Shown: one piece after another, positions 17,378 to 60,538 of the stretch
Numbering within the stretch: position 1 is the first letter of the stretch
Layout: each line of letters opens with the position of its first letter
DNA from: Ahaetulla prasina
Taxonomy: Eukaryota; Chordata; Lepidosauria; Squamata; Colubridae
NCBI RefSeq assembly: GCF_028640845.1
Contig: NC_080540.1
Coordinates: 164,071,252-164,135,251, forward strand
Length of the DNA: 64,000 nucleotides
Direction of reading: 5' to 3'
Notes under the pieces: generated by a model
Databases searched by the model: none
Told to the model about the DNA's origin: nothing
What the model saw: only the letters and a program-made list of their open reading frames with translations
Position numbers and translations under genes: made by a program

Positions 17378-17394
17378 AAGATTTACAAGAAGAT

Positions 17395-19100: not shown

Positions 19101-19452
19101 CAATAAAAAGCAGTCCTTCACATCTGCTTTGTTTTCCACCAGTTGGAAGTTAAGATTCTTTTCATGGCCACAGTAAAGTGCCTCCTTCCTGCCCTTGAGT
19201 TGGAGAGAAACATTTTGAGAAAATTGCCTCTATAATTTATCTCATGATTGCTGTTCTTACACGATTAAATGCAGGGTAATTTCAGGAAGTATTTAACATA
19301 ACATGTTCTGAAAACTAGGTTAGAGACAGATCATCATGAAGAAACTCTATCAATGTGATCGATATAAGAGGACAATAACCTGATGGCATAATCAATCAAA
19401 ATTAATTAGCCTGTTGAAGGATTGAGCTACATCTGCATTAATAGTATATGGA
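19101..19452 (+). repeat. Copy of the flank 7015-7361, fused to Gypsy pol
   Basis: Same unique sequence as 7015-7361 up to TATATGGA, where it jumps to the Gypsy sequence GAGTCGGTCC found at 10724. The 4-base word TGGA is shared at the join. Confidence 0.85.
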
Positions 19453-21268
19453 GTCGGTCCAACGTGGTCCTTAGGCGGCGCCCATTAATAACTCAGAGGG
19501 GCTTCTGTTAGTACTGGGGCAGGGTGTCGTGTGCTGGGCCAACAGATAGGCCGATACCCTCTCATACCAGTGTCCCGTGTCCAACCTGGCCAGGGCTTCC
19601 TTGGCCGATCGCACGCCCTTTCAGCAAGGCCATTACTAGCCGGGTGATATGGCGCAATTGGGGCGTGACGGATGCCCTGGGATGCCAGGTAGGACAAGAA
19701 GGTGGCAGAAGCTAGTTGCGGTCCATTGTCTGTTACTAGAACATCAGGAGCCCATGGGTGGCAAACAACTTGGACAAGACCTGTATCACTGCCTCTGAAG
19801 TGGTGGATGCCATGAGTGCTATCTCAACCCACTTCGAATAGGCATCCACCACAATTAGGAAGGTGCGACCCTTGAATGGGCCCGAAATCCAAATGAATCC
19901 GCGACCACGGGCCCTGGGGTTTTCCCACTCTCTCGGGCAGCGACTGGAGCCGCCGCCTGGACATCTGGCATGCTTGGCATTGGGAAACCCAGTTAGCTAT
20001 GTCCTTATCTAATGACGGCCACCAGACATAGCTCGGGCTAACCCCTTCATCCGGACGATGCCCGGATGACTTTCATGCAACCGGGAAAGCACGGGAACTT
20101 GAAGTGCGGGGGGAACAACGACCCTATGTCCCCACAGCAAGCAGCCTCGCTGAGATGACAACTCGTGCTGTCTGGCGAGGAACGGCCTGAATGTCGCGGC
20201 CGCAGTGGCCGCGGGGTTCAACGGCCAACCCCTGCCCACCCAGTCCAGCACCTGCGAAAAAATGGGATCGGCAGCAGAGGCAGCCGCAATGTCAACGGCC
20301 GTTACGGGGGACTCCCAGTCCTCAATGAGGAGAACCGGAGAACCGGGTGCCGGATCGTGGACTTGTCCAGGCACGGGGCAACGACTGAGCGCATCAGCGT
20401 GTGCGATCAGCTTGCCGGGCCGGTATGTCAGGGAGTAGTTATAAGCGGCCAGAAATACCGTCCACCGGGACAAACGGGGCGACAGAATAATTGGTGTCTG
20501 CCGGTCTCCGGATAAAAGCCCTAATAGCGGCTTGTGATCTGTGACAAGCTCGAACCGGCGGCCATACACATAGTCGTGGAACCTCTTAACTGAGGCCACC
20601 AAGGCCAAGGCCTCTCGATCCAGCTGGCTATAATTACGTTCAGCTGGAGAGAGAGTCCTCGAGTAAAATGCGAGAGGGGCCTCCAAGCCGCAGGGAAAAC
20701 GGTGGCTTAACACAGCCCCAATACCGAAGGGGGAAGCATCTGCCGTTAAAACAAGTGGCAGGTCAGCATTGTATTGGACCAATACGGCCGAAGAAGTGAG
20801 CAACTCCTTGACAGCTTGAAAGGCAGAAGTCTCCAGGGGGCTCCAGGACCACGGTGTGTTCTTGTCCAACAGGCGGTGGAGAGGTTCAGCCACCGAAGCC
20901 TTGTGAGGCAAGAACACACTGTAAAAATTAAGGAGGCCAAGAAATGCCTGCAGTTCCGTCCTTGAGGTCGGAATAGGGGCAGATTTAATGGCGGCCACCT
21001 TAGCCGGGGCAGGGTGGATGCCTTTAGCATCCACGAGATACCCCAAGAACTCTACTTGAGGGACCCCTATGACACATTTGGAGCGTTTCAACTTGAGACC
21101 AGCCTGCTTGAAGAGATAACACAGCCCTCACCCTCTCGACGAGTTCGGCCTGACCACCAGCGGAGACTAGGACGTCGTCGAAATAGGGGACGACCCCAGG
21201 CAATCCCTGAAGTAACCGCTCCATCAAATTTTGGAATAGACCCGGAGCAATGCTGATGCCAAACTGCA
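19449..21268 (-). pseudogene. Gypsy pol segment, copy 2 (RT C-part, RNase H, integrase)
   Basis: Longest frame 21091-20009 (360 codons): RT end (VEFLGYLVDAKGI, LNFYSVFLPHKASVAEPLHRLL), RNase H (TADASPFGIGAVL, NYSQLDREALALVASVKRFHDY, TDHKPLLGLL) and the integrase zinc-binding entry (LHESHPGIVRMKGLAR). Integrase core pieces follow at 20008-19485. Frame breaks occur near 21113 (GAAGAGATAAC against GAAGCGGGATAAC in copy 1) and in the integrase. Expected function in an intact element: cDNA synthesis and integration. Confidence 0.85.
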
Positions 21269-23032: not shown

Positions 23033-23035
23033 CTC

Positions 23036-23057
23036 AGAATCCCACCTTCGTCGCCAG
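23036..23057 (-). other. Gypsy primer-binding-site region
   Basis: On the minus strand, directly inside the 5' LTR, the sequence reads CTGGCGACGAAGGTGGGA. TGGCGACGAAGG-type primer sites adjacent to the LTR are common in vertebrate Gypsy elements. Confidence 0.55.
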
Positions 23058-23302
23058 TATTGTGTATTGGGTTCGAGGAATTACTGAGGCGACTACGAGC
23101 GTAGTAAACAAGCAACCTTTAATGAAAGCCAACTTCAAAACAATAATGGCTGGCACCCTGCGTTTGACAGCTCTTATATAAACCTGCTGTCAAACAGGAG
23201 AGCCAATCAACACACTAAGAATTCCCGCCCATTGGGTTGCCATGCGTCTTAACCAATAGGATACCGTCTCTCATTTAACATGGCGGCTCGCCGAACACAA
23301 CA
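23058..23302 (-). mobile_element. Gypsy 5' LTR (right end of the insertion)
   Basis: Partner of 9967-10209. It differs mainly by GGCTCGCCGAAC against GGTCACGAAC near the outer end. Followed by GTTAC (23303-23307). Near identity of the LTRs implies a young insertion, or recent conversion. Confidence 0.9.
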
Positions 23303-35604: not shown

Positions 35605-38600
35605 TTGTGGGGTTTTTTAGAGAGGGAATTTTTAAGGGGTGGGAGGGTAAGGGCGGGTAATGGGGGTAACCCGTCGGGTAGGGGGCCAGTTCCTGCACAT
35701 GCTCGTGGCGGGTTTTCTCTATCAGGTTCGGAGGTTAGGGGGGAGGAGTGTTCCTATCTGTGAGGTGGTTCTATCGACACGGTAAGTGGGAGAGGCAGGT
35801 ATGGCGAGCGAGGTCATATCAAGTTCCGGGAGGCGTGCTCGATGTCTGAAAGCGATCACGCTCCGACCCCTTGGACTTTCCGTTCCCGGATGGTCAGGAT
35901 CCTCAGAGCTTGGGCCTTGATTGATGTTGTGCAATGCCGGTCCGTGGTGAACAAAGCCCCTTGTCTGTGATCTTATACAGGGGTTCCGCGGACCTTATGG
36001 GCATTACGGAGACCTGGTTGGGCACTGAAGGGGTGTGCCCTTGTTGAGATGTGCCCGCGGGTTTCCGTGCATTCCATCAGCCGAGGCCCAGGGTAGGGGT
36101 GGGGGTGGCGGTTGTGATTAGAGAGTCTAGAGCCGAGGAGACCACTGTACCTCAGATTGCGGGTGCGAATCCCTCTTTGTGAGATGGGGTCGTGGGTGTC
36201 AGATGGGTTTGCTGATCACGTACCTGGCTCCTTGCTGCGTGACAGCTGCCTGCCCGAGCTCCTGGAGGTGCTGGCTGGGGTGGCAGTTGAGACCCCAGAC
36301 TTTTAGTCATGGGGACTTTAACTTGCCATCTTCCGGCTCGTCATCGGACGGCAGCTCGGGAGTTCGGCTTCCATGACAGCCTTGGACCTGACCCAAGTAG
36401 TTGATGGCCCTACTCACATTGGGGTGGCACTCTGGACCTGATTTTCTCTCTGGTCAGTGGTTGAGAGATCTGGACTTAAAGGAAATAGTCATTGAACCTT
36501 TGTCATGGTCAGATCACTCTCTTCTTGCCTGGACTTTCTGACCGCCATTCACCACCGCAGGAGGCGGAGCCGACACGTTGGTTCCGTCCCAGGCGCCTGA
36601 TGGACGGATGGGTTCGGACGGAGCTTGGGCCATTTCCTGAGGTCTGGCTCACGGCTCGGCTGAGGAACTTGTTGCGGCCTGGGAGCGGGCGCGGCGGGGA
36701 CACCGTGTCGTGCCTTTGCGACCTCTGACCCGGCGCAGGTCCCAAACGGCTCCTTGGTTCTCCGAGGAGCTGAGAGGATGAGCGTCGGAGAAGGCGCCTA
36801 GAGTTCCTGGAGGTCTGGCCGTTCGAAGCTGATCGGACACTAGTGAAGTCCTATACTAGGACTTACCTGGCATTGAGAAGCGAGGCGTAGCTCGCCTCCT
36901 CCCTCATTGCATCGGCAGATAACCGCCCAGCCGCCCTGTTTGGGTGACGCCCCTCCTACACCAGGGGGCGGGATGACCCGTTGCAGGGGACGTGCTGAGG
37001 AGTTTATGATTATCTATCGATAAAATCGTTCAACCGGGATGGTTTGGACCAAGATTGCGGTGATCGGTGAGATGCTCGAGGGTGGTCTTGGCGATATTGT
37101 TTGGGATGAGTTTGACCCTGTGGCTCCGAGGACATGGACAGGTTGCTGGGTAGGCTGAATGCCACCACATGTTTACTGGACCCGTGCCCCTCCTGGCTGG
37201 TGCTGGCCACTCAGGAGGTGACACGAGGCTGGCTCAGGCGATTCGACCGCTTCTTTGGTGGAGGTGTCTTCCGCCGCCTTGAAAGAGGCGGTGGTGAGGC
37301 CCCTCCTTAAGAAGCCTTCCTGGACCCGGCTGTTTTAGGTAATTATCGTCGGTCTCCAACCTTCGCGCTTGGCGAAGGTTGTAGAAATATGGTGGCATAT
37401 CAGTTTCCTTGCACCTGGATGAAACTGTCTATCTAGACCCGTTCAGTCCGGTTTCGGTCCGGTTACAGCACGGAGGCGGCTTTGGTCGCGTTGGTGGATG
37501 ATCTCTGGAGGGCCAGGGATAGGGTTGTTCCTCTGCCCTGGTCCTATTAGATCTCTCAGCGGCTTCGATACCATCGACCATGGTATCCTGCTGCGCCGGT
37601 TGGAGGATTGGGAGTGGGAGGCACCGTTTATCGGTGGTTCTCCCCCTATCTCTGACCGGTCGCAGTCGGTGTTGACAGGGGGGCAGAGGTCGGCTCCGAG
37701 GCGCCTCACTTGTGGGGTGCCGCCGGGGGCGATCCTCTCCCCCCCTCTGTTTAACATCTACATGAGGGCGCTGGGTGAGATCATCAGTGGTTTCGTGTGA
37801 AGTACCAGCTGTATGCGGATGACACCCAGCTGTACTTTTCTACACCGGACCACCCCAACGGTTATCAAGTGCTGTCCCGGTGTCTGGAGGCCATACGGGT
37901 CTGGATGGGGAGAAACAGGCTCAAGCTCAATCCCGCCAAGACAGAGTGGCTGTGGATGCGGCATCCCGGTACAGTCAGCTAAATCATGGCTGACCATCGG
38001 TGGCGAGTCATTGGCCCGATGGAGAGGGTTCGCAACTTAGGCGTCCTCCTGGACGAACGGCTGTCTCTAGAAGATCATCTGACGGCCGTCTCCAGGAGAG
38101 CGTTCTACCAGGTTCGCCTGGTACGCCAGTTGCGCCTTTCTGGACGGGATGCCCTATGCACGGTCACTCACGCACTCGTGACGTCTCGCCTGGATTACTG
38201 CAATGCTCTCTACATGGGGCTGCCCTTGAAGGGCATCCGGAGGCTACAGTTAGTCAGAATGCGGCTGCGCGGGTGATAGATGGAGCCCCTCGTGGCTCCC
38301 GCATAACACCCATCCTGCGCAGACTGCACTGGCTGCCTGTGGCCTTCCGGGTGCGCTTCAAGGTTTTGGTGACCACCTTTAAAGCGCTCCATGGCATTGG
38401 GCCGGGTTATTTACGGGACCGCCTACTGCTACCGAATACCTCTCACCGACCCGTGCGCTCTCACAGAGAGGGTCTCCTCAGGGTGCCGTCAGCGAGGCAA
38501 TGTCGTCTGGCGACGCCCAGGGGAAGGGCCTTCTCTGTGGGGGCTCCCACCCTTTGGAACGAACTACCCCCCGGACTCCGTCAGCTTCCGGACCTTCGGA

Positions 38601-38769
38601 CCTTCCGCCGCGGGCTTAAAACATACTTATTTAATTGTGCAGGACTGAGCTAGATTTTAAATTTATGGGTTTTAATTGGGTTTTATTTGTATGTTTTAAT
38701 TAACGGGCTTTTTGAATAAGTTTTTTAATGGTTTTTATACTGTATTTATGTGTTTTAAGTGCCTGTAAA
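35605..38769 (+). mobile_element. Long L2-type LINE (endonuclease + RT), 3' end displaced
   Basis: Endonuclease motifs DFNLPS and WSDHSLL-like near 36320-36530; RT near 37100-37990 (RPLLKK-like, LLDLSAAFDTIDH-like, CGVPPGAILSPPLFNIYM, KYQLYADDTQLYFS); the last 217 codons open at 38000-38653 ([57 protein letters not shown]). The 3' UTR is cut at GCCTGTAAAC (38769) by duplication copy A and recurs, complete with CCGCCCTGAGTCCTTCGGGA and an AAAT tail, at 41482-41735. Known role of the proteins: target-primed reverse transcription. Confidence 0.88.
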
Positions 38770-39016
38770 CACAGCAGATAAAAAAGCATTGAAAGATAAT
38801 GACATCCTCGTCATAGTCCAGCTGTTCGGCTTGGGGTAGAGTGGGAACTCTTTAGCCACTGTGGTTTGTAAAACATGGGTTATAGTATAGCTTGTGTGAA
38901 TCCAAGCATGTGGTTTATTCAATAAACAATTGTTTATGGATTATTCTCTCCTCTAATGATAATCTGACATTTCCAGTAACGTTCTTCTCTTCCAGCCACA
39001 GAAGGATTAGAAGACC

Positions 39017-39329
39017 ATGTGGTTTTATGTGGTGGCCTTGCTGGGGTTCTATTTCCTGTTCCGTTGGTACCGTGAAAAACAGATTTTGCCAAACCTGACA
39101 GAGAAATATGTCTTCATAACTGGCTGTGACTCTGGATTTGGCAATCTCCTGGCTCGGCAGTTGGATGCGAAAGGCCTTCGGGTCTTGGCAGGTTGTCTGA
39201 CCCAGCAGGGTGCAGAAAAGCTGAAAGAAGCCACTTCAGAACGGTTGCAGACCAACCTCATAGATGTCAGCAGCACAGAAGATTTGGACAAAGCAACGAA
39301 ATGGGTGAAAAGCCAAGTAGGAGACAAAG
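39017..39329 (+). CDS. RDH16-like: RDH16-like coding exon 1, upstream copy (1A)
   Basis: Encodes residues 1-104 plus the first base of codon 105: N-terminal membrane anchor, first beta strand and the TGCDSGFG cofactor loop. The ATG is preceded by a 21-nt leader and a good acceptor (pyrimidine-rich tract, AG at 38994-38995), so exon 1 is not transcript-initial. The donor after GACAAAG is GTTGGC, a weak match to consensus. It differs from copy 1B by two silent changes in the coding region (GAT/GAC for Asp83, GTA/GTT for Val101). No exon 2 follows before copy 1B, so 1A is either an alternative first coding exon, a dead duplicate, or an assembly duplicate. Confidence 0.8.
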
Positions 39330-39434
39330 GTTGGCACAGAATTCAGGCAGTCTTGGGTTTTCTTTAGGGTTTGACTAAAAATGGAATAATATTTCTTCTT
39401 GTGTAAATTAGGGTGAATTTTTCGAAGGTTAGGC

Positions 39435-40161
39435 CAGGGGTGAAATCTAATTTTTTTTTGCTACCGGTTCTGTGGGCGTGGCTTGGTGGGCGTGGCTTGG
39501 TGGGCATGGGTCATGTGACTGGGTGGGTGTGGCTATGTGACTGGGGGATCAAAAGACACAAACTCACTAACGATGTCCTGCTGGAGCAGGGTTGGACTAG
39601 ATCAGAGGTCTCCAACCTTGGCCACTTTAAGAATTATGGACTTCAACTCCCAGAGTTCTAGGAGTTGAAGTCCACAAGTCTTAAAATGCCCAAGGTTGGA
39701 GACCCCTGGACTAGATGACCTCCAGGTCCCTTCCAGCCTCTGAAGCTGCGTCTAGTGCCAGGTTTGTATTCCTTCCTTCCTCTCCTTCCTTCCCTGCCTC
39801 CCTCCCTCCTTTCTCTCTCTCTTAAAAACGACCCCCCACACCCCGTTTACCTCCCAGCCTACCTGAAGCCTGCTAGCCACACCAAAAACGGGGGGTGGAG
39901 TTCGTTTTCCTGCTGGGAGAGCGGACTCCCCTTTTGTTAGCACCCAGCTGAGCCGCACGATCATCAGAGGCTTTTTTTTTTTCTTTTAAAAGCTTTTTTT
40001 ATCAGAAGAAAAAATGCTTTTAAAAAAAACCCTCTGATGATCGCGCGGCTCAGCTGGGAATGGGGGGGGGGCTGGAATTTTTGCTACCAGTTCTCTGAAC
40101 TACCTGCCACCATTGCTACCAGATCGGGTGATCTGGTACGAACCGGGAGCATTTCACCCCG
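39435..40161. mobile_element. hAT-like non-autonomous element (727 bp), copy A
   Basis: CAGGGGTGAAATCTAA start, GAGCATTTCACCCCG end; flanks GGTTAGGC (39427-39434) and GGTTAGCC (40162-40169), 7 of 8. Encloses a CR1-like piece, the palindromic MITE at 39603-39708, a TTCC-rich tract and a large inverted repeat (about 39943-40058). Confidence 0.7.
39603..39708. mobile_element. Palindromic MITE with perfect 8-bp target duplication
   Basis: CAGAGGTCTCCAACCTTGG to CCAAGGTTGGAGACCCCTG, arms complementary around a centre near GAGTTCTAGGAG. GACTAGAT at 39595-39602 and 39709-39716. Confidence 0.9.
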
Positions 40162-41284
40162 GGTTAGCCCCACTTTTCGTGACAACAGGCCTCTGAAACT
40201 GATACATTTTTAAAAAAAAGATACTAAGCAGGAGTTTTTGAGTCTAGTTTCTCTATGTCTGAAGTCCATTTTTTTAATCTCATCTCTACACATTGCCACT
40301 CTGTACATATTGGGCAATGTGACTGTTGCACTGACTCTTCTTTCAATGGAAAATGTTCCTTAATACGGTATGTATCAAAGGCAAGAGTTACTGGTACTAA
40401 ACTGGACAGAACTGTTACCCTAATACGCTCCAGGTGTTTTAGACTCCCATCAGCCTGAGTACAGACGAGGGCAAACAATTACCGGAGTTGTCCAGAAACC
40501 CCCTGCAAGTTGCTTGCCCTGCACTACATACAATTTTGTTCTTGCTCATTGTGTCTTCTGAGGTTGCGACTGATCTTTCTTCTCACAAGCGGCTTCAGGA
40601 AATGGTAATTGCACATTGTGTAAGTTCTATGCAGCTCCAACCAAGACAGCCATATGTTAGCAACATCAGAAAAACTCAATTTTTCCCTTGTCCCACTAAT
40701 CTTGAAATATAGTACATACATTCCATAAGATTAGCCTTCACTTTTTATTAGCATTTGCAGGCTTCAGTGCTAAATTCAATGAGCATTTCCTGTCTCGGTT
40801 CATGGTAATTGTATAACAGTTAATTGTTATGTCATGGCATTTATGGTGTGATCTTGGCCAAGGTGTCCCTCCAAGGTGGCCTTCCAACCTCAAAAATTAA
40901 ACATAGAAATCCATTAATTTTTGGATAAAACAAAGCTGGCCATATCAAAAGCCAGTTTTCTTTGTTTTATCCAGAAAAGAACATACCAGCCTAAATATTG
41001 ATGTGGTTTTGCTTGCCCATTCAGATTCAATGCTAGCTGTTCAATTCAATTGATTGATACGCATCAATTAGTATTTTTGTTATCAATAGTAGCAATTGCC
41101 TTGGATAGCAACCATTTGCAGTTATGATGATAATGAAAAAGCAATTTTGTAGCCAGTGCCTGTATTTGCAACTTTCACAGGACATAAGAACATAAGCGCA
41201 GTGGTGATCTCACTTAGTGACTGCTTCTCTTAACAATCAACTTGTCCATCTCAATTTTTTTCAAGGTCTTCTCTGGCCTTTATT

Positions 41285-41480
41285 ATTTTTTATAAATGAC
41301 TGAAGACACTGAACATACTGTACCTAATGTTCCTACCTTTTCTGCTTTTCCCCACAACAACCCTGTGAGGTGAATTGAACTCAGAGACAGCTGAGTGAGC
41401 CAGCTGGTTTTCATATCATCAGGACTAGAATTCACATCTTGTGGTTTCTAATATGGTGCCATAAGCACTAAACCAGATTT
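41285..41480. repeat. MIR-like SINE in duplication copy A
   Basis: ACAACAACCCTGTGAGGTG, GTGAGCCAGCTGGTTTTC and ATAAGCACTAAACCAG. The same element occurs in copy B at 44640-44835. Confidence 0.5.
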
Positions 41481-41481
41481 T

Positions 41482-41735
<254 letters not shown>

Positions 41736-41995
41736 CTATATCATCATTATTATCTCTATCTATCTATCTAGATATCTATCTAGATATCTCATCTATCTAT
41801 CTATCTAGATATCTCATCTATCTATCTATCTAGCTCTATCATTATATCTATCTAGATATCTCATCTATCTATCTATCTAGATATCTATCTAGATATCTCA
41901 TCTATCTATCTATCTAGATATCTCATCTATCTATCTATCTAGCTCTATCATTATATCTATCTATCTATCTGTCTATCTCTATCATGATTATCTAT
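41736..41995. repeat. ATCT/AGAT (GATA-type) microsatellite array
   Basis: Higher-order pattern: blocks of ATCT units separated by AGATATCT and AGCTCTATCATT spacers, repeated about four times. Confidence 0.95.
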
Positions 41996-42349
41996 CATCT
42001 ACCTACCTACATGTTTCATTTGCCACCCATCTCGTATCCAACAACTCTGGGCAGCTTACAATATAGCAACACTGAAAACATTAAAATAATTCATTATAAA
42101 AACACAGCAGATAAAAAAGCATTGAAAGATAATGACATCCTCGTCATCGTCCAGCTGTTCGGCTTGGGGTAGAGTGGGAACTCTTTAGCCACTGTGGTTT
42201 GTAAAACATGGGTTATAGTATAGCTTGTGTGAATCCAAGCATGTGGTTTATTCAATAAACAATTGTTTATGGATTATTCTCTCCTCTAATGATAATCTGA
42301 CATTTCCAGTAACGTTCTTCTCTTCCAGCCACAGAAGGATTAGAAGACC

Positions 42350-42662
42350 ATGTGGTTTTATGTGGTGGCCTTGCTGGGGTTCTATTTCCTGTTCCGTTGG
42401 TACCGTGAAAAACAGATTTTGCCAAACCTGACAGAGAAATATGTCTTCATAACTGGCTGTGACTCTGGATTTGGCAATCTCCTGGCTCGGCAGTTGGATG
42501 CGAAAGGCCTTCGGGTCTTGGCAGGTTGTCTGACCCAGCAGGGTGCAGAAAAGCTGAAAGAAGCCACTTCAGAACGGTTGCAGACCAACCTCATAGACGT
42601 CAGCAGCACAGAAGATTTGGACAAAGCAACGAAATGGGTGAAAAGCCAAGTTGGAGACAAAG
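42350..42662 (+). CDS. RDH16-like: RDH16-like coding exon 1, downstream copy (1B)
   Basis: Same structure as copy 1A, offset exactly 3333 bp, with acceptor AG at 42327-42328 and donor starting at 42663. It is the copy nearest exon 2 (intron 1 then spans 42663-47030) and sits in what looks like the ancestral context, because the flank to its left (42000-42099) is unique while the left flank of 1A is the inside of an L2 element. That makes 1B the likelier original. Confidence 0.85.
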
Positions 42663-45600
42663 GTTGGCACAGAATTCAGGCAGTCTTGGGTTTTCTTTAG
42701 GGTTTGACTAAAAATGGAATAATATTTCTTCTTGTGTAAATTAGGGTGAATTTTTCGAAGGTTAGGCCAGGGGTGAAATCTAATTTTTTTTTGCTACCGG
42801 TTCTGTGGGCGTGGCTTGGTGGGCGTGGCTTGGTGGGCGTGGGTCATGTGACTGGGTGGGTGTGGCTATGTGACTGGGGGATCAAAAGACACAAACTCAC
42901 TAACGATGTCCTGCTGGAGCAGGGTTGGACTAGATCAGAGGTCTCCAACCTTGGCCACTTTAAGAATTATGGACTTCAACTCCCAGAGTTCTAGGAGTTG
43001 AAGTCCACAAGTCTTAAAATGCCCAAGGTTGGAGACCCCTGGACTAGATGACCTCCAGGTCCCTTCCAGCCTCTGAAGCTGCGTCTAGTGCCAGGTTTGT
43101 ATTCCTTCCTTCCTCTCCTTCCTTCCCTGCCTCCCTCCCTCCTTTCTCTCTCTCTCTTAAAAACGACCCCCCACACCCCGTTTACCTCCCAGCCTACCTG
43201 AAGCCTGCTAGCCACACCAAAAAACGGGGGGGGGGGGTGGAGTTCGTTTTTCCTGCTGGGAGGGAAAGCGGACTCCCCCCCCTTTTTTTTGGCTAGCACC
43301 CAGCTGAGCCGCACGATCATCAGAGGCTTTTTTTTTTCTTTTAAAAGCTTTTTTTATCAGAAGAAAAAATGCTTTAAAAAAAAACCCTCTGATGATCGCG
43401 CGGCTCAGCTGGGCATGGGGGGGGGCCTGGAATTTTTGCTACCAGTTCTCTGAACTACCTGCCACCATTGCTACCAGATCAGGTGATCTGATACGAACCG
43501 GGAGCATTTCACCCCTGGGTTAGCCCCACTTTTCGTGACAACAGGCCTCTGAAACTGATACATTTTTTTAAAAAAGATACTAAGCAGGAGTTTTTGAGTC
43601 TAGTTTCTCTATGTCTGAAGTCCATTTTTTTAATCTCATCTCTACACATTGCCACTCTGTACATATTGGGCAATGTGACTGTTGCACTGACTCTTCTTTC
43701 AATGGAAAATGTTCCTTAATACGGTATGTATCAAAGGCAAGAGTTACTGGTACTAAACTGGACAGAACTGTTACCCTAATACGCTCCAGGTGTTTTAGAC
43801 TCCCATCAGCCTGAGTACAGACGAGGGCAAACAATTACCGGAGTTGTCCAGAAACCCCCTGCAAGTTGCTTGCCCTGCACTACATACAATTTTGTTCTTG
43901 CTCATTGTGTCTTCTGAGGTTGTGACTGATCTTTCTTCTCACAAGCGGCTTCAGGAAATGGTAATTGCACATTGTGTAAGTTCTATGCAGCTCCAACCAA
44001 GACAGCCATATGTTAGCAACATCAGAAAAACTCAATTTTTCCCTTGTCCCACTAATCTTGAAATATAGTACATACATTCCATAAGATTAGCCTTCACTTT
44101 TTATTAGCATTTGCAGGCTTCAGTGCTAAATTCAATGAGCATTTCCTGTCTCGGTTCATGGTAATTGTATAACAGTTAATTGTTACGTCATGGCATTTAT
44201 GGTGTGATCTTGGCCAAGGTGTCCCTCCAAGGTGGCCTTCCAACCTCAAAAATTAAACATAGAAATCCATTAATTTTTGGATAAAACAAAGCTGGCCATA
44301 TCAAAAGCCAGTTTTCTTTGTTTTATCCAGAAAAGAACATACCAGCCTAAATATTGATGTGGTTTTGCTTGCCCATTCAGATTCAATGCTAGCTGTTCAA
44401 TTCAATTGATTGATACGCATCAATTAGTATTTTTGTTATCAATAGTAGCAATTGCCTTGGATAGCAACCATTTGCAGTTATGATGATAATGAAAAAGCAA
44501 TTTTGTAGCCAGTGCCTGTATTTGCAACTTTCACAGGACATAAGAACATAAGCGCAGTGGTGATCTCACTTAGTGACTGCTTCGCTTAACAATCAACTTA
44601 TCCATCTCAATTTTTTTCAAGGTCTTCTCTGGCCTTTATTATTTTTTATAAATGACTGAAGACACTGAACATACTGTACCTAATGTTCCTACCTTTTCTG
44701 CTTTTCCCCACAACAACCCTGTGAGGTGAATTGAACTCAGAGACAGCTGAGTGAGCCAGCTGGTTTTCATATCATCAGGACTAGAATTCACATCTTGTGG
44801 TTTCTAATATGGTGCCATAAGCACTAAACCAGATTTTTTTTAAATTTGCATTTATATCCCGCCCTTCTCCGAAGACTCAGGGCGGCTTACACAGTGTCAA
44901 GCAATAGTCTTCATCCATTTGTATATTATATACAAAGTCAACTTATTGCCCCCAACAATCTGGGTCCTCATTTTACCTACCTTATAAAGGATGGAAGGCT
45001 GAGTCAATCTTGGGCCTGGTGGGACTTGAACCTGCAGTAATTGCAAGCAGCTGCTGTTAATAACAGACTGTCTTAACAGTCTGAGCCACTCAAGACCCAC
45101 AGATTTAGCTATCTGTGGTTGCTAAACAAGGACTAACTGCACTACTACTTCTTCCAGCAGCAGTGAGTATTTGTCATGCCAGGCATATATCAGACTGACA
45201 GATTTGACAATATTTGGACACTGTTCCCCATTTGTATGGACTTGCAAGATTGAGTATTAACACTATCTTCAATAGAAGGTTGCTACAATGGAATTATCAA
45301 GGACGTGGTGGCTCAGTGGCTAAGACGTTGAGCTTGTCGATCGAAAGGTCGGCAGTTCAGCAGTTCGAATCCCTAGTGCCATTTAACAGAGTGAGCTCCC
45401 ATTACTTGTCCCAGCTTCTGCCAACCTAGCAGTTCGAAAGCATCTAAAAAATGCAAGTAGAAAAATAGGGACCACCTTTGGTGGGAAGGTAACAGCATTC
45501 CGTGCGCCTTTGGCATTGAGTCATGCCGGCCACATGACCACGGAGACGTCTTCGGACAGCGTTGGCTCTTCGGCTTTGAAATGGAGATGAGCACCGCCCC

Positions 45601-48116
45601 CTAGAGTCAGGAACGACTAGCACATATGTGCGAGGGGAACCTTTACCTTTACCTTATAATGGAATTGAAAGCACATTTCTTCCCCTTGGCTTTACTTTCC
45701 AAGGAATTAGAGAGGGTCTCTTCTAAGACATTTCCCACACCTCCATTCTTCTGAGGACTGAGATGTCTCTTACCTGACTATTGTCAATTCGCAAAGCATC
45801 CCTGCCTCAAGGCTCATGATTTAATTAGTCCATCCATCAGAACCCTGACAATTATCCTGGCAGCAGCTGCTCCTCCTCCTCCTCCTCCTGTCTTTCAAGG
45901 ATATTCCCACAGACCATTACAAATAAGACTTATGAAAAATGACCACAAGTACTGGGAAGCGTTTGTTATTAGTTATCAAATGCCAAGGCAAATAAAAACA
46001 TATTTCTCATATTTAAATTGGTTGCTGCATGAAATCATAACAGAGACGTGTATGGACCTGTGCGGTACTGCATAGTGATTAAAATGTAAGATTAAGAGAT
46101 TCTAGATTATTCTCATTTTGTGACTTTGGGGCCAGTCACTTTCCTCTAATCTTTGTCAAGGGTTATTTTTGTAGGGAAAGTGAAAGCAAACTCAAGAGTA
46201 CCCCACCTTGAGTTACAAAACAGGTTTTAATGAGAACATTGTGCATTGGAAGGAAAACATGCGGCCAACCCTTTTTAGGCAAATATAATTCTTAAAGAAG
46301 TGACCAAGATACTTATTGCAATGTGTCTTATTGCTTACTAGGGAGAGATGTCAAAAATATTACTTAACCTTCCCAAGTCTGTGAGTTGAGATTAGGCTTC
46401 CATAAATCCCAGCTTTTGAGAGCTGAATTGGACCTTGCAAACCTAAGCTCAGTTTAATCACATTTATATTAACATGGGCCTCACTGTTCCTTACCCAACA
46501 CCTTAACTGTTGACGCCTGAGATAATATTAGTTAGGTTTGTTTGAGCTGTCCTTTCCCCCCTTACTTTTATGAACCCCAGTGTTTTGATATAACAAAGTG
46601 GAGGATGTTGAAGTAGAAAGAAATATTTATCAGTTACTTAATTTTGTTCTGTTTTCATGGGATACTGTTTGGATGTACTGCAGGATACTTCTGCTGACTG
46701 CCGGCAGTTCGGCAGTTCGATCCTCACCGGCTCAAGGTTGACTCAGCCTTCTATCTTCCATCCTTCCGAGTTGGTAAAATGACCCAGATTGTTGGGGGCA
46801 ATAGGTCGACTCTGTAAACCGCTTACAGAGGGCTGTAAAGCACTGTGAAGCGGTATATAAGTCTTAAGTGCTATGGCTATTAGATCTCTAAGATGTCTTC
46901 TTCACATGTTTCAAGAACCAGATTGGCTTGCCTAACGTATAACAAGAGAGAGTATTCCAGAGGGATGCTGCTGTAGAGGGCTCTTATCACATAGTTGACG
47001 TCCCCTGTTTCTTCTTCTTCTTCTCATTAGGACTTTGGGGATTGGTAAACAATGCCGGTGTTTCTATCCCAACTGCCCCAAATGAGTGGCTAACCAAGGA
47101 GGATTTCAAGAAAATCATCGATATCAATCTACTTGGGGTGATTGACGTGACCTTACACATGATACCATTGTTGAGAAAAGCCAAGGGACGTATTGTCAAC
47201 ATTGCCAGCATAATGGGCCGATTAAGTCTTTTTGGTGGAGGCTACTGCCCTTCAAAATATGGTGTGGAATCTTTCTCTGATAGTCTCAGGTAAGTGCTAT
47301 TTTCTTGTTAACAGTATTGGCAAAAATTCAAATGTTTCTTGGACGGTGGGGTAAATTCTTTAAATTCTTTCATAAAACAGGTGCATTTCAGAATACAAAA
47401 GCCATTGTCACAGTAATAATATTGCTGTGTTGGTTTACAGAAGTGTTGCAGGATACAACACGAGTGTAACTGCAGACCGATCAATTTTCTCATTTAGCAC
47501 CGAAGTTAAATACAGTATCGGCCAGCCAAACTTGGACCATACTTTTATAAGTAACAACATTCCAAACTGCTGAGCAAACTTTTACGTTTCAATCCGGGAT
47601 TTTGGCTCCCCACTCCCAACACATCACGCATGTCCCAATTGCTTTATTTAAAAAAAAATGTTACAGTAAGAGAAAAATTGGTACATAAACAGATGATTGA
47701 TGATAATTAATTACTGTAATAAGAATGTTTGGCCATTGCCATATTGAAACTCCTCTGCTAATAGTAACAGAGAGTGTGACTCATGGATGTCTGGCTAAGG
47801 CTGAAAGAAGAAAAAGTCAGTTTTGAACTGTAATCCAACACAAAATTAAATTGAGCTAAACCTTTGCAAGTGAAGGGAGACTGACTTGTGAGTAGAACGC
47901 AGTTAGGTCTCCTTTAAAAGAACTAACAGTTAGATCCAGGTGCATGAGAGAGACATAACAAACATAAAACATCAGTGTAAATCTTGCCAGCTAAAAAGCA
48001 ACGTAGAATACAGGTAGACCCCCTTGACTTATAACCTGTCGCTTACAACCCGTTCAAAATTATGGCAGAACCTTTGAAAGGTTACTTACAACTTGGATGT
48101 GAAGCTCTGATGGCGT

Positions 48117-52152: not shown

Positions 52153-55100
52153 CATCCTCCATCCATCCATCCATCCATCCATCCATTTATCTTCTTTCTA
52201 TCTATCTATCTATCTATCTGTCTGTCTGTCTATCATCTATCAAACTTGTATGCTGCCCATCTCTCCAAAGACGACCGTAGGCAACTTATAGATATTGAAT
52301 GAAATGCAGTGTAAAACATTAAAACAATAAAGATCTTAGTTTTATTTTAATTGAAATAAAATTTCAATTAAAATAAAACTAAGCAGGCTGGAGAGGGAGG
52401 GAGCAAAGTGCACACAGGAGGAGGTGTAGCATTCTCTACTCCATTAGACATCTCCAACTTGCCACACTCCCATTGGGCCCCAGGCTTAGCCACATCTTAA
52501 AGGTCTTTCAGAAGGACAGAAGTGTGGGAGCAGATCTGACCTCGGGGGGGCATGAAGTTCTAGACTGGGCAGGAGCCATGGCAGAAAAGGTTTTTCTGGA
52601 ATCCACCCATGCCATGAAGGGCTTTAAGGGTGATATTGTAAGCAACACCTTGAACTGGATGCTGAAGCAAACTGACTGTCAGTGTATCTCATGTAATAGC
52701 GGTGTAGCATGAGCCAAGCTAGGGGCCCCAAGAATTGCCCATGCAGCTGTGTTCTGCACCAGCAGAAGTTGTCAGATATTCTTCAAGGATAGCCTCATAT
52801 AGAATTCATTGCAGTCGTCCAAGTGTGAGATGACCGGGGCTTGAGGGACTGAGCACAGGAACTTCAAATCCAGGAAAGGGCACAACTGGTCCACAACATG
52901 AAATTGTGCAAAGGCTCTTCTAGCCACAACTGCCACTAACTCATAGTTATCACCCATAAAGCCCAGCGTGGCGTAGGGCGTAGTTATTCGAGTGACCACC
53001 TGTCTCTGGTTTTTTTTCTGCCCATTTGGTGAGATTGGCCAGAGGGAACATGGTATGGATGCCATTAATCTAGCAGTGTCATATTGCAGGAAACAGGCCT
53101 TCTTTGTTAAGGTGGCACAGGTGCCTGCAATTTTCTTAAGCAATCTGCTCTTTCACAATGGATCACGCCTTTCCTCTGGATTTATATCCCCCTAGAGATC
53201 TAGATCAGGGGTCTCCAACCTTGGTCCTTTTAAGACTTGTGGACTTCAACTCCCAGAGTTCCTCAGCCAGCTTTGCTGGCTGAGGGACTCTGGGAGTTTA
53301 AGTCCACAAATCTTAAAGGGACCAAGGTTGGAGACGCCTGATCTAGATAGTTCCCACCTGGGGGATATTCAAGAAGTTATTAAAGGCCTGGCTGTTCTCT
53401 CAGGCTGTAGGGCAAAATGAATGTTCAGCCCCTATTTGATGAAGTTTTTGGTTTTCTATTGTTTGTGGGCTGCTCATTTTTTTTTCTTTTGTATTTTTTT
53501 TTAAAAAAAGTTTTAATTGTAAGCTACTCAGAGGTCAGGCAGCCTATAAACTGTATAAATAAGATAAAAATAGTATTATTATTTTTAGAAAAATGGGCTC
53601 TCTCTTCTTGTTTTATTATATAGACATAGTAAATTCACATACCCATGCATGTATACATACCAAGAGACAATAATAGGAATGATGTATTTAACATCATTCC
53701 TATTGCATTTTTACATTTTTATGTATTATATTATATCTAATATAATATAATATATTATTATATAGCTTATAATATATATATATATATATAATATAATAAT
53801 ATATATATTATATATTATTATATAGACCGTGATAGCTCAGGCTGTTAAGAAGCCTGTTATTAGAACACAGCAGCCTGCAATTACTATAGGTTCAAGCCCG
53901 GCCCAAGGTTCACTCAGCCTTCCATCCTTTATAAGGTAGGTAAAATGAGAACCCAGATTGTTGGGGGGGCAATAAGTTGACTTTGTAAAAAATATACAAA
54001 TAGAATGAGACTATTGCCTTATACACTGTAAGCCGCCCTGAGTCTTCGGAGAAGGGCGGGGTATAAATGTAAACAAACAAACAAACAAAAATATCTGATT
54101 CTCACTTCCATATAATAGAGTTGACAGAAGAACAGTAAATATTCTACCATGGCACTTAAATTAATTGACATGTTCTAGTTTCTTTCTGGGTAGATATAAC
54201 TTCCATTTTCCCCATCAAACCTATTCACTTTTCAGATTTGTATTTGTTGCATCCTATCCTTTCTTCACCTACTTCCACAACATTTTTTTATATCCATCAT
54301 AATCATTCTGCATTTCTCTACCTCTCTTATCCTGGGCTATTCCTAACTCCTAGAGTATATTCTTTGCAAACCCCCCCTTCCCCCCCAAAAAAAACACATT
54401 GTCACATTTTTTTTCTCTTGTCCTCCATTTTTTTCTCTCCCCATCCCTCATTCACAGTCACTTTTGCTTCATCATTTCACCAAACATCCTTTTTCATACT
54501 TCCCATTCATCTAACATCATATACAGGTTGTCCTCGACTTATGACCACAATTGAACCCAAAATTTCTGTTTTTAAGTGAGATAATTGTTAAGTGAGTTTT
54601 GCCCCCATTTACAATCTTTCTTGGCACACTTGTTAAGTGAATCACTACAGTTTATTTATTTATTTATTTATTTATTTAATCGTATTTATATACCGCCCTA
54701 TCTCCCAAGGGACTCAGGGCGGTTTACAGGCACTAAAAACAGATAAATACAATATAAATACAATATAAAACATTTAAAAAACTTATTCTAAAGCCCGTCC
54801 AATTAAAAATAGAAATAAAACCCAATTTAAAACCCAAAATTTAAAATCTAGCTCAGTCCTGCACAATTAAATAAGTATGTTTTAAGCCCGGAAGGTCCAA
54901 GGTCCAGCTGACGAAGTCCGGGGGGTAGATCGTTCCAGAGGGTGGGAGCCCCCACAGAGAAGGCCCTTCCCCTGGGTGTCGCCAGACGACATTGCCTCGC
55001 TGACAGCACCCTGAGGAGACCCTCTCTGTGAGAGCGCACGGGACGGTGGGAGGTATTCGGTCGCAGTAGGCGATCCCGTAAATAACCCGGCCCAATGCCG

Positions 55101-58100
55101 GGTTGATAAGTTAATAACCTAGTTGTTAAGTGAATCTGCTTTCCCATTTGCTTGTCAGAAGGTCGCAAAAGGGGATCCGATGACCTTGGGACACATTAAC
55201 GGTCATAAGTATGAACCAGTTGCCAAGCGTCTGAATTTTGATCGCATGATTATGGGAATGCTTCAAAAGTCTTAACTGTGAAAAACTGTTGTAAGTCATT
55301 TTTTGAGTGCCATTGTAACTTTGAACGGTCACTAAATGAACTGTTGTAAGTAGAGGACTACCTGTACTTCTATAGCACAGACTTTTTACTTTCAAGTACA
55401 AAGAATTATATTATGGGCTATAGAAGCCTAGTTTATAGCAGTAAGAGCCTTAACATTATTATAAAGGAATGGGAGGAATCAAGAAATGATGAAGACAAGA
55501 GGAGCAAGAAGAAGACACAGAAGAAACATCTAGAATATACACTGAATGACTGATTATGTATTGTATGTTTGTTCATAAAATTTAAAAAATGTTTATAAAA
55601 AAACATTATTTCCCATTCTTTCTTTAGGGGGATTAATCTGTTTTATAATACTTTTTCATACAGAATGTACAATTTGTACTTTCTCCTGTTTGTATTTTTC
55701 TCCTTCCACTTTTTTTGGTTCTCCGTTGTTTCTTTTTGTCCATGCTCCCGCATTTTTCAAGATGTCACAGCCATAATGATTTTCCAGAACCTGTGGTAGA
55801 TAATATTAATTTTTTTTCCAGGCTTGAACTCTCCCCCTTTGGAGTGAAAGTCTGCATAATAGAGCCAGGTTACTTCCAAACTGCAGTCACCAATGATAAA
55901 ATCTTGCACCAGAATTTCAGGAACCTCTGGGAGCGTCTTCCAGAAGAAATCAAGGAAGCGTATGGAGAGAGTTATTATAAGTCACGTGAGTGAGATTCTC
56001 CTATTTTCTTAAAACCTGATGTCAGGGAGGGAGGAAGAGACAGAGAGAGAGATTTTACACAGAAAACACCAGGAGCCACAAAACCTGGGTGGGCGTGGCT
56101 TGGGGAGTATCATGTGACTGGGTGGGAGTTATGTTGAGTTGACCGCCTAGGTTTTGTGGCTCCCGGTGTTTTCTTTTCTGTGGGAAACGGGTCTAAATGG
56201 CTCTTCGAGTGTTTAAGGTTGCAGATCCCTGCCTTAACACTACTCATTACCTGTTCTATACAGTAGTATGTGGGTTTATGTACAGATAGTCCTTGATGTA
56301 CAGACCAAAATTATGGTGGCGAAATAGAGCACGTGGTAAGTGAGTTTTGCCCCATTTTACAACCTTTTGCCACAGTTGTTAAGTAAATCGCTGCAGTTGT
56401 TAAGTGAGCCAAGAGGTTGTTAAGGGATGCAATTTCCCTCCCTTCCCCCCCACCCCCGTTGATGTTGCTTGTCAGAAGCTGGCTGGGAAGATAATACATG
56501 GCGATAGCAATAGCACAATGCTTTACAGCCCTCTCTTTTTTTCATTTTACCCACCTCAGAAGGGTGGAAGGCTGAGTCAACCTTGAGCCAGTGAAACTCG
56601 AACTGCCGGCAGGCAGCAGGAGTAGCCGCCTGAAGAATGTTGTGCCTGTCCTTGCAATTATAAGGGCCAGAAACTTGAATCAAATGTTGTAATAATCAGA
56701 ACAATGGGTGCAAACTTTAACTGTGTTCAGCTGGATTCCAAAATAAATATGGTGTCCTCCGTGTCCATAATATTAGGGAAAAATTGTAAGAAAGGAGGAC
56801 ATGATAATTATATGACTCATATAAGGAGCAAATGAAGCTGAATCAAATTAGCTGCCTGGAAAATGTTTTGCTGGTATAGATGTCTGTATCTGCTTGCCCT
56901 CTGTGTCTAGATTCTGTCTTAGGTGTCAAAAATTACACACGGTTTTAGAACGTTTGATTTTGGTTGTCTAATAACTAACTTATATGAACTATCCCAGTTT
57001 TCTGAAGTATCCTAGCTTTCTTTGGGAACTCCCGGGGGTTGGGAGCACATCAGTGGTGGGTTGCCTCCAGTTCGGACCGGTTCTATAGAACTGCTAGTAA
57101 AACCGGTGGGAGGCTCCTCCCACTGACCCGAATGTATGCCTGGGTGGGAGTTATTTAGTTAGAACCTCCCCTGTTTATTGGATGAAAGAGATTAATCTTC
57201 TTGGTGCCAATGCATTTGGTGCAGTGAGTCACATATGTACAGAAAGTCTTCTGCATATTCAAATTACGCGGTTACCCTGAGCGTTATTTCTGGCTGAATG
57301 CATTTTTGCCACTTCGACTATTTTATAAACGAAACCCATACTTCTCAGGATATTAATTTCAGGCAATTAAATTTGTAACGAGCAAAAGTTATAGTTGGAA
57401 AGAATAGGCGTGGTCTGGGGAATTTGTATACAGGATTGTTAAATGAGAGCTTAGTGTGGTTCTAATTTATATTTATGGGGCTCAGTGGCTAAGATGCTGA
57501 GCTTGTCGATCGAAAGGTCGGCAGTTCAGCGGTTCAAATCCCTAGTGCCGTGTAACGGGGAGCTCCTGTTACTAGTCCCAGCTTCTGCCAACCTAGCAGT
57601 TCGAAAGCATGTAAAAAATGCAAGTAGAAAAAATAGGGACCACCTTTGTGGGAAGTAACAGCGTTCCGTGCGCCTTTGGCGTTGAGTCATGCCGGCCACA
57701 TGACCACGGAGACATCTTTGGGCAGCGCTGGCTCTTCGGCTTTGAAACGGAGATGAGCACCGCCCCCTAGAGTCGAAAATGACTAGCACATATGTGCAAG
57801 GAGAACCTTTACCTTTAATTTATATTTTGTGAAGAACAAATGTATTCTTATTTCATTTTTTTCCCCATCTCTCTTTCTGTAGTGATGGAAGGAACCTCTA
57901 AACTGCAAGCCAACTGCAATTCTAAACTTCATCTGGTTACCAACTGCATGGAACATGCATTGACTGCTGTGCATCCTCGCTTCCGCTACTCAGCCGGTTG
58001 GGATGCCAAACTCTTTTACCTCCCTGTAAGCTACTTGCCAACTAGGCTAGCAGATCAGCTGTTTTTGTGGTCTTACCCTCAACCAAAAAAGAGCACTTAG
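42350..58100 (+). CDS. RDH16-like: RDH16-like retinol / 3-hydroxysteroid dehydrogenase (SDR9C), whole spliced gene
   Basis: Joining 42350-42662, 47031-47289, 55822-55985 and 57883-58100 gives 954 nt, 317 codons plus stop, the usual length for RDH16/HSD17B6/RDH5-type enzymes. All three introns are GT-AG and phases match (1, 2, 1). Residues 1-17 are hydrophobic (membrane anchor) followed by RWYRE. The Rossmann cofactor motif TGCDSGFG lies at 35-42, NNAG at 111-114, and the catalytic set is N137, S164, Y176, K180 (YCPSK). Known family role: NAD(P)-dependent oxidation of all-trans/cis-retinol and of 3-alpha/17-beta hydroxysteroids at the endoplasmic reticulum. The sequence resembles RDH16 most ([43 protein letters not shown]), but RDH7 or HSD17B6 orthology cannot be separated by eye. 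Exon 1 exists twice, so the true start may be 39017 instead of 42350. No frameshift or stop is seen. Confidence 0.9.
42768..43517. mobile_element. hAT-like non-autonomous element, copy B
   Basis: Same as 39435-40161 with longer homopolymers. The right end is better preserved (CATTTCACCCCTG), with flanks GGTTAGGC / GGTTAGCC. Nested palindromic MITE at 42936-43041. Confidence 0.7.
44842..45106 (-). repeat. tRNA-derived SINE with LINE-like 3' end (family 1), minus
   Basis: ATATCCCGCCCTTCTCCGAA, GACTCAGGGCGGCTTAC, GGATGGAAGGCTGAGTC and AACAGTCTGAGCCACTC are the reverse complement of the 28755 copy. Confidence 0.85.
45298..45656 (+). repeat. BovB-tailed tRNA SINE (Sauria-SINE type)
   Basis: A-box-like GTGGCTCAGTGGCTAAGA, B-box-like GTTCGAATCCC, GAGTCATGCCGGCCACATGA, and a BovB-like end GCACCGCCCCCTAGAGTC followed by CCTTTACCTTTACCTT. 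Confidence 0.88.
45657..46689. other. Intron 1, unique sequence
   Basis: No exon, repeat or RNA gene that I recognise; a short CTC run near 45870. Confidence 0.4.
46690..46885 (+). repeat. tRNA-derived SINE, variant of family 1
   Basis: CGGCAGTTCGATCCTCACC (B-box), AAGGTTGACTCAGCCTTC, CCCAGATTGTTGGGGGCAAT, then a different 3' end AGCACTGTGAAGCGGTATAT. Confidence 0.7.
47031..47289 (+). CDS. RDH16-like: RDH16-like coding exon 2
   Basis: Preceded by a CTTCTTCTTCTTCTCATTAG acceptor and followed by the consensus donor GTAAGT at 47290. It completes codon 105 (Gly) and runs to the first two bases of codon 191 (Arg). It carries NNAG (111-114), the catalytic Asn in DINLLG (137), Ser164 and the YCPSK motif (176-180), so it holds the whole active-site tetrad. 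Frame is open throughout. Confidence 0.93.
47290..48010. other. Intron 2, 5' part, unique sequence
   Basis: Follows the exon 2 donor. No repeat or gene that I recognise. Confidence 0.4.
48011..48446. mobile_element. TA-type MITE with internal (AC)n
   Basis: CAGGTAGACCCCCTTGACTT to CGTCGAGCGCTACCTG; ACAC run at about 48117-48156. Contains TTACAACCCGTTCAAA and AATGACCATGAC-like family words. Confidence 0.65.
48447..49239. other. Intron 2, unique sequence
   Basis: A G/T-rich stretch at about 48876 and an A run at 48921. No exon or repeat that I recognise. Confidence 0.4.
49240..49528. mobile_element. hAT-type MITE, 289 bp, perfect 8-bp target duplication
   Basis: CAGTGGTGGGATTC to ATTACCATCTCTG; GTCTGGGC at 49232-49239 and 49529-49536. 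Reference copy of this family, which also includes 30979-31272, 31799-32001 and 50009-50282. Confidence 0.9.
50009..50282. mobile_element. hAT-type MITE, same family, opposite orientation
   Basis: CAGAGGTGGGTTTCAGC to TTGAATCCCACCACTG; flanks TTTTGATC / TTTTTGTC (6 of 8). Confidence 0.8.
50283..51040. other. Intron 2, unique sequence
   Basis: AT-rich; no exon, repeat or RNA gene that I can support. Confidence 0.4.
51045..51222 (+). mobile_element. Old L2-type fragment
   Basis: Reads like [11 protein letters not shown] followed by a QLVQ-type stretch with many substitutions. Cut at 51223 by a younger L2 end. Confidence 0.4.
51225..51905 (-). mobile_element. L2-type LINE 3' end, minus strand
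   Basis: Encodes [66 protein letters not shown] and [11 protein letters not shown]; the 3' end CCGCCCTTCTCCCGAAGGAC lies at 51251 and a TTTATTTATTT tail at 51228-51241. Confidence 0.88.
51917..51988. repeat. (GGTT)n microsatellite
   Basis: About 18 units, G-rich on the + (transcribed-sense) strand of intron 2. Grades into GGTC, CTGT and CCGT units to about 52040. Confidence 0.95.
52020..52240. repeat. CCGT / ATCC / ATCT microsatellite cluster
   Basis: Successive tetranucleotide blocks (CCGT, CATC, ATCT, CATC, ATCT, CTGT), a staircase in which each unit differs by one base from the next. Confidence 0.95.
52330..53150 (-). mobile_element. Ancient L2-type LINE fragment, minus strand
   Basis: Minus-strand reading includes [35 protein letters not shown] and [18 protein letters not shown], a degenerate form of the L2 LG..D....L...V..LARSAFF...R.LAPFL and SRLDYCNALY block. 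The 5' end of this stretch (52330-52380) has a self-complementary AATTAAAATAAAACTAAG region. Confidence 0.55.
53206..53340. mobile_element. Palindromic MITE, 135 bp, perfect 8-bp target duplication
   Basis: Arms of about 60 nt are nearly perfectly complementary: CAGGGGTCTCCAACCTTGGT against CCAAGGTTGGAGACGCCTG, with ACTTCAACTCCCAGAGT / ACTCTGGGAGTTTAAGT inside and centre CAGCTTTGCTG. ATCTAGAT at 53198-53205 and 53341-53348. Confidence 0.92.
53740..53825. repeat. AT-rich simple repeat
   Basis: TATA/TAATATAT runs immediately before the SINE at 53825. Confidence 0.9.
53825..54089 (+). repeat. tRNA-derived SINE, family 1
   Basis: Very similar to 28755-29012 (GATAGCTCAGGCTG, GGTTCAAGCCC, GCCGCCCTGAGTCTTCGGAG) with an (ACAA)n tail. 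Confidence 0.88.
54524..55364. mobile_element. TA-flanked MITE split by an L2 insertion
   Basis: CAGGTTGTCCTCGACTTATG to AGTAGAGGACTACCTG with TA on both sides (54522-54523, 55365-55366). The halves are 54524-54650 and 55094-55364. Confidence 0.8.
54651..55093 (-). mobile_element. L2-type LINE 3' end, minus strand
   Basis: Encodes [33 protein letters not shown] and [17 protein letters not shown]; 3' end and TTTATTTATTT tail on the left side. Inserted within the MITE. Confidence 0.85.
55367..55821. other. Intron 2, 3' part, unique sequence
   Basis: Leads to the exon 3 acceptor; pyrimidine-rich stretches only. Confidence 0.4.
55822..55985 (+). CDS. RDH16-like: RDH16-like coding exon 3
   Basis: Acceptor TTTTTTTCCAG ends at 55821; donor GTGAGT starts at 55986. 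It finishes Arg191 and encodes the [18 protein letters not shown] segment, in which PGYF is the conserved SDR9C PG motif that closes over the cofactor, then the substrate-side helices ending at Ser245. Intron 2 before it is 8.5 kb and repeat-rich. Confidence 0.92.
56283..56500. mobile_element. TA-type MITE, left part
   Basis: CAGATAGTCCTTGATGTACA start after TA, GTGAGTTTTGCCCCATTTTA and TTGTTAAGTAAATCGCTGC. The right half is absent. Confidence 0.6.
56505..56625 (-). repeat. tRNA-derived SINE fragment, minus
   Basis: AGCACAATGCTTTACAGCCC and GGAAGGCTGAGTCAACCTTG with a degraded B-box AACTCGAACTGCCGG; resembles 46690-46885. Confidence 0.6.
56626..57050. other. Intron 3, unique sequence
   Basis: Nothing recognised. 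Confidence 0.4.
57051..57173. mobile_element. hAT-type MITE, truncated
   Basis: CAGTGGTGGGTTGCC, GTTCTATAGAACTG, GGTGGGAGGCTCCTCCCA; family of 23882-24057. Right boundary uncertain. Confidence 0.55.
57476..57824 (+). repeat. BovB-tailed tRNA SINE
   Basis: GGCTCAGTGGCTAAGATGC, GGTTCAAATCC, GAGTCATGCCGGCCACATGA, GCACCGCCCCCTAGAGTC, CCTTTACCTTTAA. It ends only about 58 nt before exon 4, inside the acceptor region of intron 3. Confidence 0.88.
57883..58100 (+). CDS. RDH16-like: RDH16-like coding exon 4 (C-terminus, stop TAG)
   Basis: Acceptor CTGTAG ends at 57882. The exon completes codon 246 (Leu) and encodes the C-terminal part with [24 protein letters not shown] and a hydrophobic end typical of SDR9C enzymes, stopping at TAG 58098-58100. 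The final residues are a short basic tail. The 3' UTR continues past 58100 in non-repeat sequence. Confidence 0.92.
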
Positions 58101-59646: not shown

Positions 59647-60072
59647 CTACAGCCCCTGGGACAGATACATGCAATGAACATTTGTATTGCTGCAGAGAGT
59701 CTCCCCCTTTGGGGTCTTTTTGTGTGTGTAAGAGGGGGGCAGAAATTCCAACTTGGGGTCTGCTTCAGCCTCCTGGTGCAAGGCTTTGGGCGAAGGCTGG
59801 AGGGAAGTGCCGCTGGTGGCAAAGAGCCAGAGGACCTTGTTCCAGTGGGACTGCATCATGGCCTGGAACTGGTTGACAATGTCAGCCCATTGAGCCTCCA
59901 GGCACCTGTACCTGGCCTTGCACTCCCGCTGGTCTTCCCTCTGCTTAGAAAGCTTAGGCTCGTAGTCCTCAGTGAGGTGCTTCTGCTGAGCCTCCTTCTC
60001 AGTTAGATCTAATTTGAACTCAACCAGTTGTTTTGCCAACCCTTTCTCATGGTGGCTGCTTAGCTTCAACAA
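59647..60072 (-). pseudogene. Unrecognised coiled-coil ORF (141 codons), probably a gene fragment in a repeat
   Basis: Residues about 1-75 form a charged coiled coil (LTEKEAQQKHLTEDYEPKL, KQREDQRECKARYRCLEAQW) followed by VNQFQAMMQSHWNKVLWLF and a low-complexity C-terminus. Codon-like amino-acid composition and length argue for a once-coding sequence. I do not recognise the family. No introns or splice sites are visible; upstream (60075-60150) is GC-rich. Retrocopy or a fragment carried by the flanking hAT-like repeat are both possible. Not claimed as a functional gene. Confidence 0.4.
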
Positions 60073-60538
60073 CTGTTTCCTGTTGGGGCCCTACGGAGCC
60101 TGGGCGGGCAGGCAAGGAGGGGCTAGGAGGGGAGGGGTGAGTAGAGGCCGGCGAGGTGCGCATTTAAATGCAACCATAGGTTTTAGCAAAATTTGTATAA
60201 AATTATAGCAATGTTTCAAGGTTGGCAATAAAATTTGTGTATTTGGAAATCTAAAAGCATGTGATAAAATCTCACACTAAAGAATCCAACAATCCTTAGA
60301 AATATTTGTACATGCAGGATAAGGAAGCAGCATAATAATTAAAGCAAAAACAAATAACACAAATGAGGCAATTATGTTCTGAAAGAACTGCAGAAGCTGA
60401 GCCTTCTTCAATTATCTTACAGAACTTGTGAAATCAATTGAGGGTTGTGGAAAAGCAGTTTGACTGCAGTCTCAGGCAGTAGGAACAATGGTGAAAAATG
60501 TTGAGAACTGCAGTTTAGAAATATCTGGAAAGCTAATA

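Follow-up and report, generated by a model that had tools for sequence, protein, structure and literature searches.

An RDH16-like gene in a 64-kb stretch of the Ahaetulla prasina genome (C2:164071252-164135251, hereafter the window; assembly of 1.77 Gb in 745 contigs) has its first coding exon twice, head to tail. On balance we consider it probable that the repeat is a genuine recent tandem duplication on at least one haplotype, in which the two exon copies, 1A and 1B, would act as consecutive internal exons behind one leader and likely lower expression of the gene. Self-BLAST of the window aligned 38767-41486 with 42100-44842 as a direct tandem pair of 98.43% identity over 2744 columns, the longest repeat pair listed for the window. 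An earlier sequence-only reading of this DNA had described copies of about 2.7 kb lying 3333 bp apart; the pair itself was recovered, and the spacing held in the exon-containing part only, since indels change it to 3355-3356 bp farther along.

Structure and identity of the duplicated gene

Exon 1A (38996-39329, forward strand) comprises 21 nt of 5′ untranslated region, codons 1-104 and one further base, and exon 1B (42329-42662, forward strand) has the same composition. Both are 334 nt long with the same acceptor (ttccag) and donor (gttggc), the donor context AAAG/gttggc being weak as judged by eye. The sequence-only reading was right that each copy carries an intact exon 1 with both of its splice sites and that the coding differences are two and silent: exactly two third-position changes separate the copies, at codon 83 (GAT/GAC) and codon 101 (GTA/GTT). 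Three further exons on the forward strand complete the model, namely exon 2 (47031-47289, where a PF00106 match is located), exon 3 (55822-55985) and the coding part of exon 4 including the stop codon (57883-58099). Within the window these exons are single, as had also been proposed, since they fall outside all of its listed repeat pairs of at least 300 bp and at least 85% identity. All exons have GT-AG borders, and 317 codons specifying an identical protein are obtained with either 1A or 1B; a functional difference between the 1A and 1B peptides was therefore rejected. Exons 1A and 1B, homologous and lying head to tail in one gene, each with its splice sites, constitute a tandem exon duplication.

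Among the 120 listed of 5020 protein matches to the 317-aa model, the best was the RDH16-like protein of the corn snake Pantherophis guttatus (P0001), with 94% identity at 100% query coverage, which bears out the RDH16-like identity first suggested for the gene; Vipera latastei (89%) and Crotalus adamanteus (87%) were also listed, with viper, rattlesnake and cobra proteins at 87-90%, a ranking that by itself points to a colubroid snake as the likeliest source. The model matched the adh_short domain (PF00106) with 135.4 bits, and its best match of solved structure, among the 60 shown of 512 matched sequences, was DHRS9 (9b2f). By its full-length protein match and adh_short domain the gene is an RDH16-like short-chain dehydrogenase, with retinol or 3-alpha-hydroxysteroid dehydrogenase as its predicted activity, the name RDH16-like being taken from database labels; we take the snake RDH16-like gene to belong to the SDR9C group. 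It thus shares its protein likeness (94%, 89% and 87%) with other snake RDH16-like genes and differs in having exon 1 twice. A cluster of other RDH16/HSD17B6-like exons is situated at C2:157.89-158.03 Mb, where exon 1 has four matches at 62-65% and a fifth, containing two stops, at 41%; four of the six PF00106 matches there contain an in-frame stop in their scored part, which may reflect only intron read-through.

Borders, divergence and possible origin of the duplication

The left border, previously placed at 38767, proved to lie 86 bp further upstream. The 3′ tail of a long interspersed nuclear element (LINE) is repeated from 38681 at 41482 and the copies meet at TTTTA, therefore the duplicated segment extends from within the LINE tail at 38681 to 44842. 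In copy 1 (38681-41486, forward strand) the exon-1A unit (38767-41486) follows immediately on 86 bp of LINE tail (38681-38766). Copy 2 (41482-44842, forward strand) consists of the LINE 3′ end, ATAAA and TATC microsatellites and the exon-1B unit, and shares with copy 1 the 5-bp microhomology TTTTA, where the two overlap at the tandem-duplication junction (41482-41486, forward strand). A 22-nt pattern at this junction had a single match in the window when up to two mismatches were allowed. Copy 2 also holds 531 bp that copy 1 lacks (about 41573-42099, forward strand), made up of the LINE 3′ terminus, the microsatellites and about 100 bp more; the corresponding join in copy 1 has a 4-bp microhomology, AAAC (38767-38770, forward strand). 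The left breakpoint lies in the tail of a degenerate LINE (37423-38766, forward strand; start approximate, from its open reading frame (ORF)), which was recognised from our reading of its translation and from its match to 54722-55099 on the reverse strand of the window. In this related LINE the tail continues as it does in copy 2, whereas copy 1 breaks off after GTAAAC, thus it is copy 1 that apparently lost the 531 bp.

In a global alignment of the copies, with 2717 aligned bases, there were 23 substitutions and 8 gaps, and two gaps were end effects of the chosen cut points. By our manual sorting, 12 of the substitutions lay within poly-G/T/A tracts (about 39.9-40.2 kb) where the alignment is poor; the other 11, or about 0.4% of the aligned bases, were clean. 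Gene conversion may have influenced this divergence.

At its end, copy 1 passes into the LINE tail via TTTTA, which is common to both partners. A tandem duplication of about 3.36 kb could have been generated if the LINE tail and intron 1 of the RDH16-like gene were linked by template switching or by a microhomology-mediated join, with the 531 bp lost from copy 1 either in that same event or afterwards. Joins with short microhomology are an established trait of end joining and template switching, and the two present here suggest a process of this type. Two other origins were rejected: a retrocopy, as intron and upstream sequence were duplicated along with the exon, and a dispersed repeat, as a search of the whole assembly with the 3′ half of the unit gave two full-length matches, both of them the window copies, while the other 38 of the 40 scored matches (from 342 candidates) were 70-81% identical over roughly 90-215 bp. 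With exon 1 as the query, all 13 candidates in the assembly were scored, of which two matched at 100% and the next best at 65%. Neither of these two genome searches revealed a third copy or a haplotig.

Internal exons or alternative first exons

The sequence-only reading had proposed two interchangeable first exons, 1A and 1B, that could come under different upstream control, a proposal that is not supported in this form. We found instead that both look internal because each keeps a splice acceptor just before the start codon, with a YAG 21 nt before the ATG that is preceded by 12 pyrimidines in 15 nt. Six of the ten exon-1 matches outside the window were inspected as paralogues (L029-L032 were left out as their matches fall short of the start codon), using a filter that asked for a YAG no more than 30 nt from the ATG and counted pyrimidines in the 15 nt before it. 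At a threshold of at least 12 pyrimidines 3/6 paralogues passed, and at least 8 pyrimidines were present in 5/6, compared to 2.6% and 24%, respectively, of 2104 ATGs forming the window background. These acceptors suggest an order in which 1A and 1B follow each other as internal exons behind a single putative untranslated leader exon and promoter. Some points tell against this arrangement: the upstream leader exon was not found, the filter was written after the paralogue sequences had been inspected, and one of the six paralogues (L025) fails it outright.

If each copy instead had its own promoter, 1A and 1B would be alternative first exons spliced to exon 2, and the same protein would be made under two separate upstream controls. 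Each copy retains about 230 bp of the sequence before exon 1, and farther upstream the copies differ, with the LINE tail before 1A and the microsatellites before 1B, as such a model would have it. The 229 bp upstream of the exon, however, differ by one substitution (38815/42148), and the acceptor just upstream of the ATG points to a spliced leader exon; we regard separate promoters as quite improbable.

For consecutive internal exons the predicted consequence is decay of messages that include both, a point absent from the sequence-only reading. Joining 1A to 1B shifts the frame because 334 nt is not divisible by three, and the joint product reads 130 aa before a stop at codon 131, which argues further against freely interchangeable first exons. 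This stop is positioned 254 nt before the junction of 1B with exon 2. Under the 50-nt rule for marking messages for nonsense-mediated decay (NMD), a message holding both 1A and 1B would thus be marked and degraded, and messages skipping either copy would yield the same 317-aa enzyme. The net effect would likely be lower expression, rescued by copy-skipping messages, and no new isoform. Of the 274 protein hits for the 130-aa sequence, the 120 listed included no annotated joint product, and the top match in that list covered 80% of the sequence at 84% identity. We give little credence to the further idea that this is nascent mutually exclusive splicing, in which an almost undiverged pair, segregating or freshly fixed, is kept apart only by frame-shift decay; were it true, RNA would show directly which of two equal exons is chosen at the outset. 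A real duplication would offer a natural test of how the splicing machinery handles two equal exons before they diverge, and possibly a partial loss-of-function allele of a retinoid/steroid dehydrogenase.

Assembly artefact and comparison with known systems

The same sequence could have arisen as an assembly artefact, through placement in tandem of two haplotypes, one with the 531-bp deletion, or through a chimeric read or gap-fill join. PMC9516828 reports that 4 to 16% of sequence in older assemblies was falsely duplicated, including false exon gains within genes, that some of these errors persist in newer assemblies, and that some false duplications were connected via incorrect gap filling. 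Clean divergence of about 0.4% is also of a size possible between two haplotypes of one animal, and many of the copy differences sit in homopolymer tracts. A second, patchwork duplication in the window (2.5-12.5 kb versus 16.9-23.3 kb) could indicate a locally poor assembly, and our failure to find a haplotig came from scoring the best candidates (40 of 342), which is no proof of absence.

Real duplication is nevertheless favoured, as there is no N nearby, the joins have short microhomology and not a long overlap, and no haplotig was found. The marks of false duplication given in PMC9516828 are gaps, haploid depth and discordant pairs. Here no N bases occur in the window or in 10 kb on either side, so that the gap between copies that is a usual, if not invariable, mark of false duplication is absent. 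The junction links non-homologous sites that share 5 bp, and TTTTA and AAAC are shorter than we would expect of an overlap-based assembly join; both joins look more like real rearrangement than assembler joins, which favours a real allele. The same source counts as true a tandem duplication that was allele-specific and lay in one contig. We also took 15 hand-picked 10-kb stretches (L035-L049; 150 kb, no N) as a base-rate sample, of which two (L046 and L040) contained a direct repeat of at least 500 bp at 97% identity or more, one of them tandem, in a sample too small to call tandems rare. Weighing both sides, we judge an artefact unlikely, albeit a serious alternative to a genuine recent duplication. 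Were it an artefact, it would caution that a chromosome-scale assembly can hold a false exon gain even where it has no local gap.

In the sampled stretches, L046 (extended with L050) has two 1353-bp repeats flanking retroelement-like ORFs, read by eye as long terminal repeats, and L040 has a tandem of 1.75 kb inside a stretch that appears retroelement-like by eye, plus a flanking 505-bp pair. The L040 head-to-tail duplication (2967-6432) is 98.3% identical between copies, which by eye have 9 bp in common where they join.

The patchwork duplication connects window positions 2532-12539 and 16891-23302, and could be either real rearrangement or misassembly. Its blocks 3308-3764, 5702-7361 and 10721-12539 correspond in the same order to 17378-17834 (100%), 17819-19452 (97.1%) and 19449-21268 (99.5%), which abut with 16- and 4-bp overlaps, and block 9967-10209 has its counterpart outside this order, at 23058-23302 (98.8%). 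An internal tandem repeat (4120-5466 versus 5399-6754, 97% identical) lies within the first of its two regions, and an ORF on the reverse strand (20009-21127) encodes retroelement RNase H domains. Elsewhere in the window, a 147-aa open frame on the reverse strand (59647-60090) looks coiled-coil-like by eye and gave no match in a Pfam search; an Rfam search of the window gave nothing at the gathering threshold.

We found no paper in a whole-word literature search for RDH16 and snake, and none of the titles and abstract openings listed in our literature searches concerned this duplication. The false exon gains in PMC9516828 likewise involve a near-identical duplicated exon within one gene; unlike those, the copies here have no intervening N and are connected by microhomology joins. 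A close parallel among functional systems is with tandemly duplicated, mutually exclusive exons. PMC5740500 counts a frame shift leading to NMD among the mechanisms that eliminate messages with both duplicated exons, and PMC6071210 and PMC7969005 also place NMD among such mechanisms. Exons 1A and 1B share with this class adjacent coding exons of the same length and phase, and their joint inclusion likewise produces a frame shift and a premature stop. They differ from OGDH exons 4a/4b, for which PMC7969005 describes differing peptides and RNA evidence; 1A and 1B encode the same peptide, and the duplicated exon bears the start codon. The tandem exon duplication is thus confirmed as a sequence feature; it is probably real and recent and belongs to an already known kind, in which it stands out in that both peptides are identical and the exon bears the start codon.
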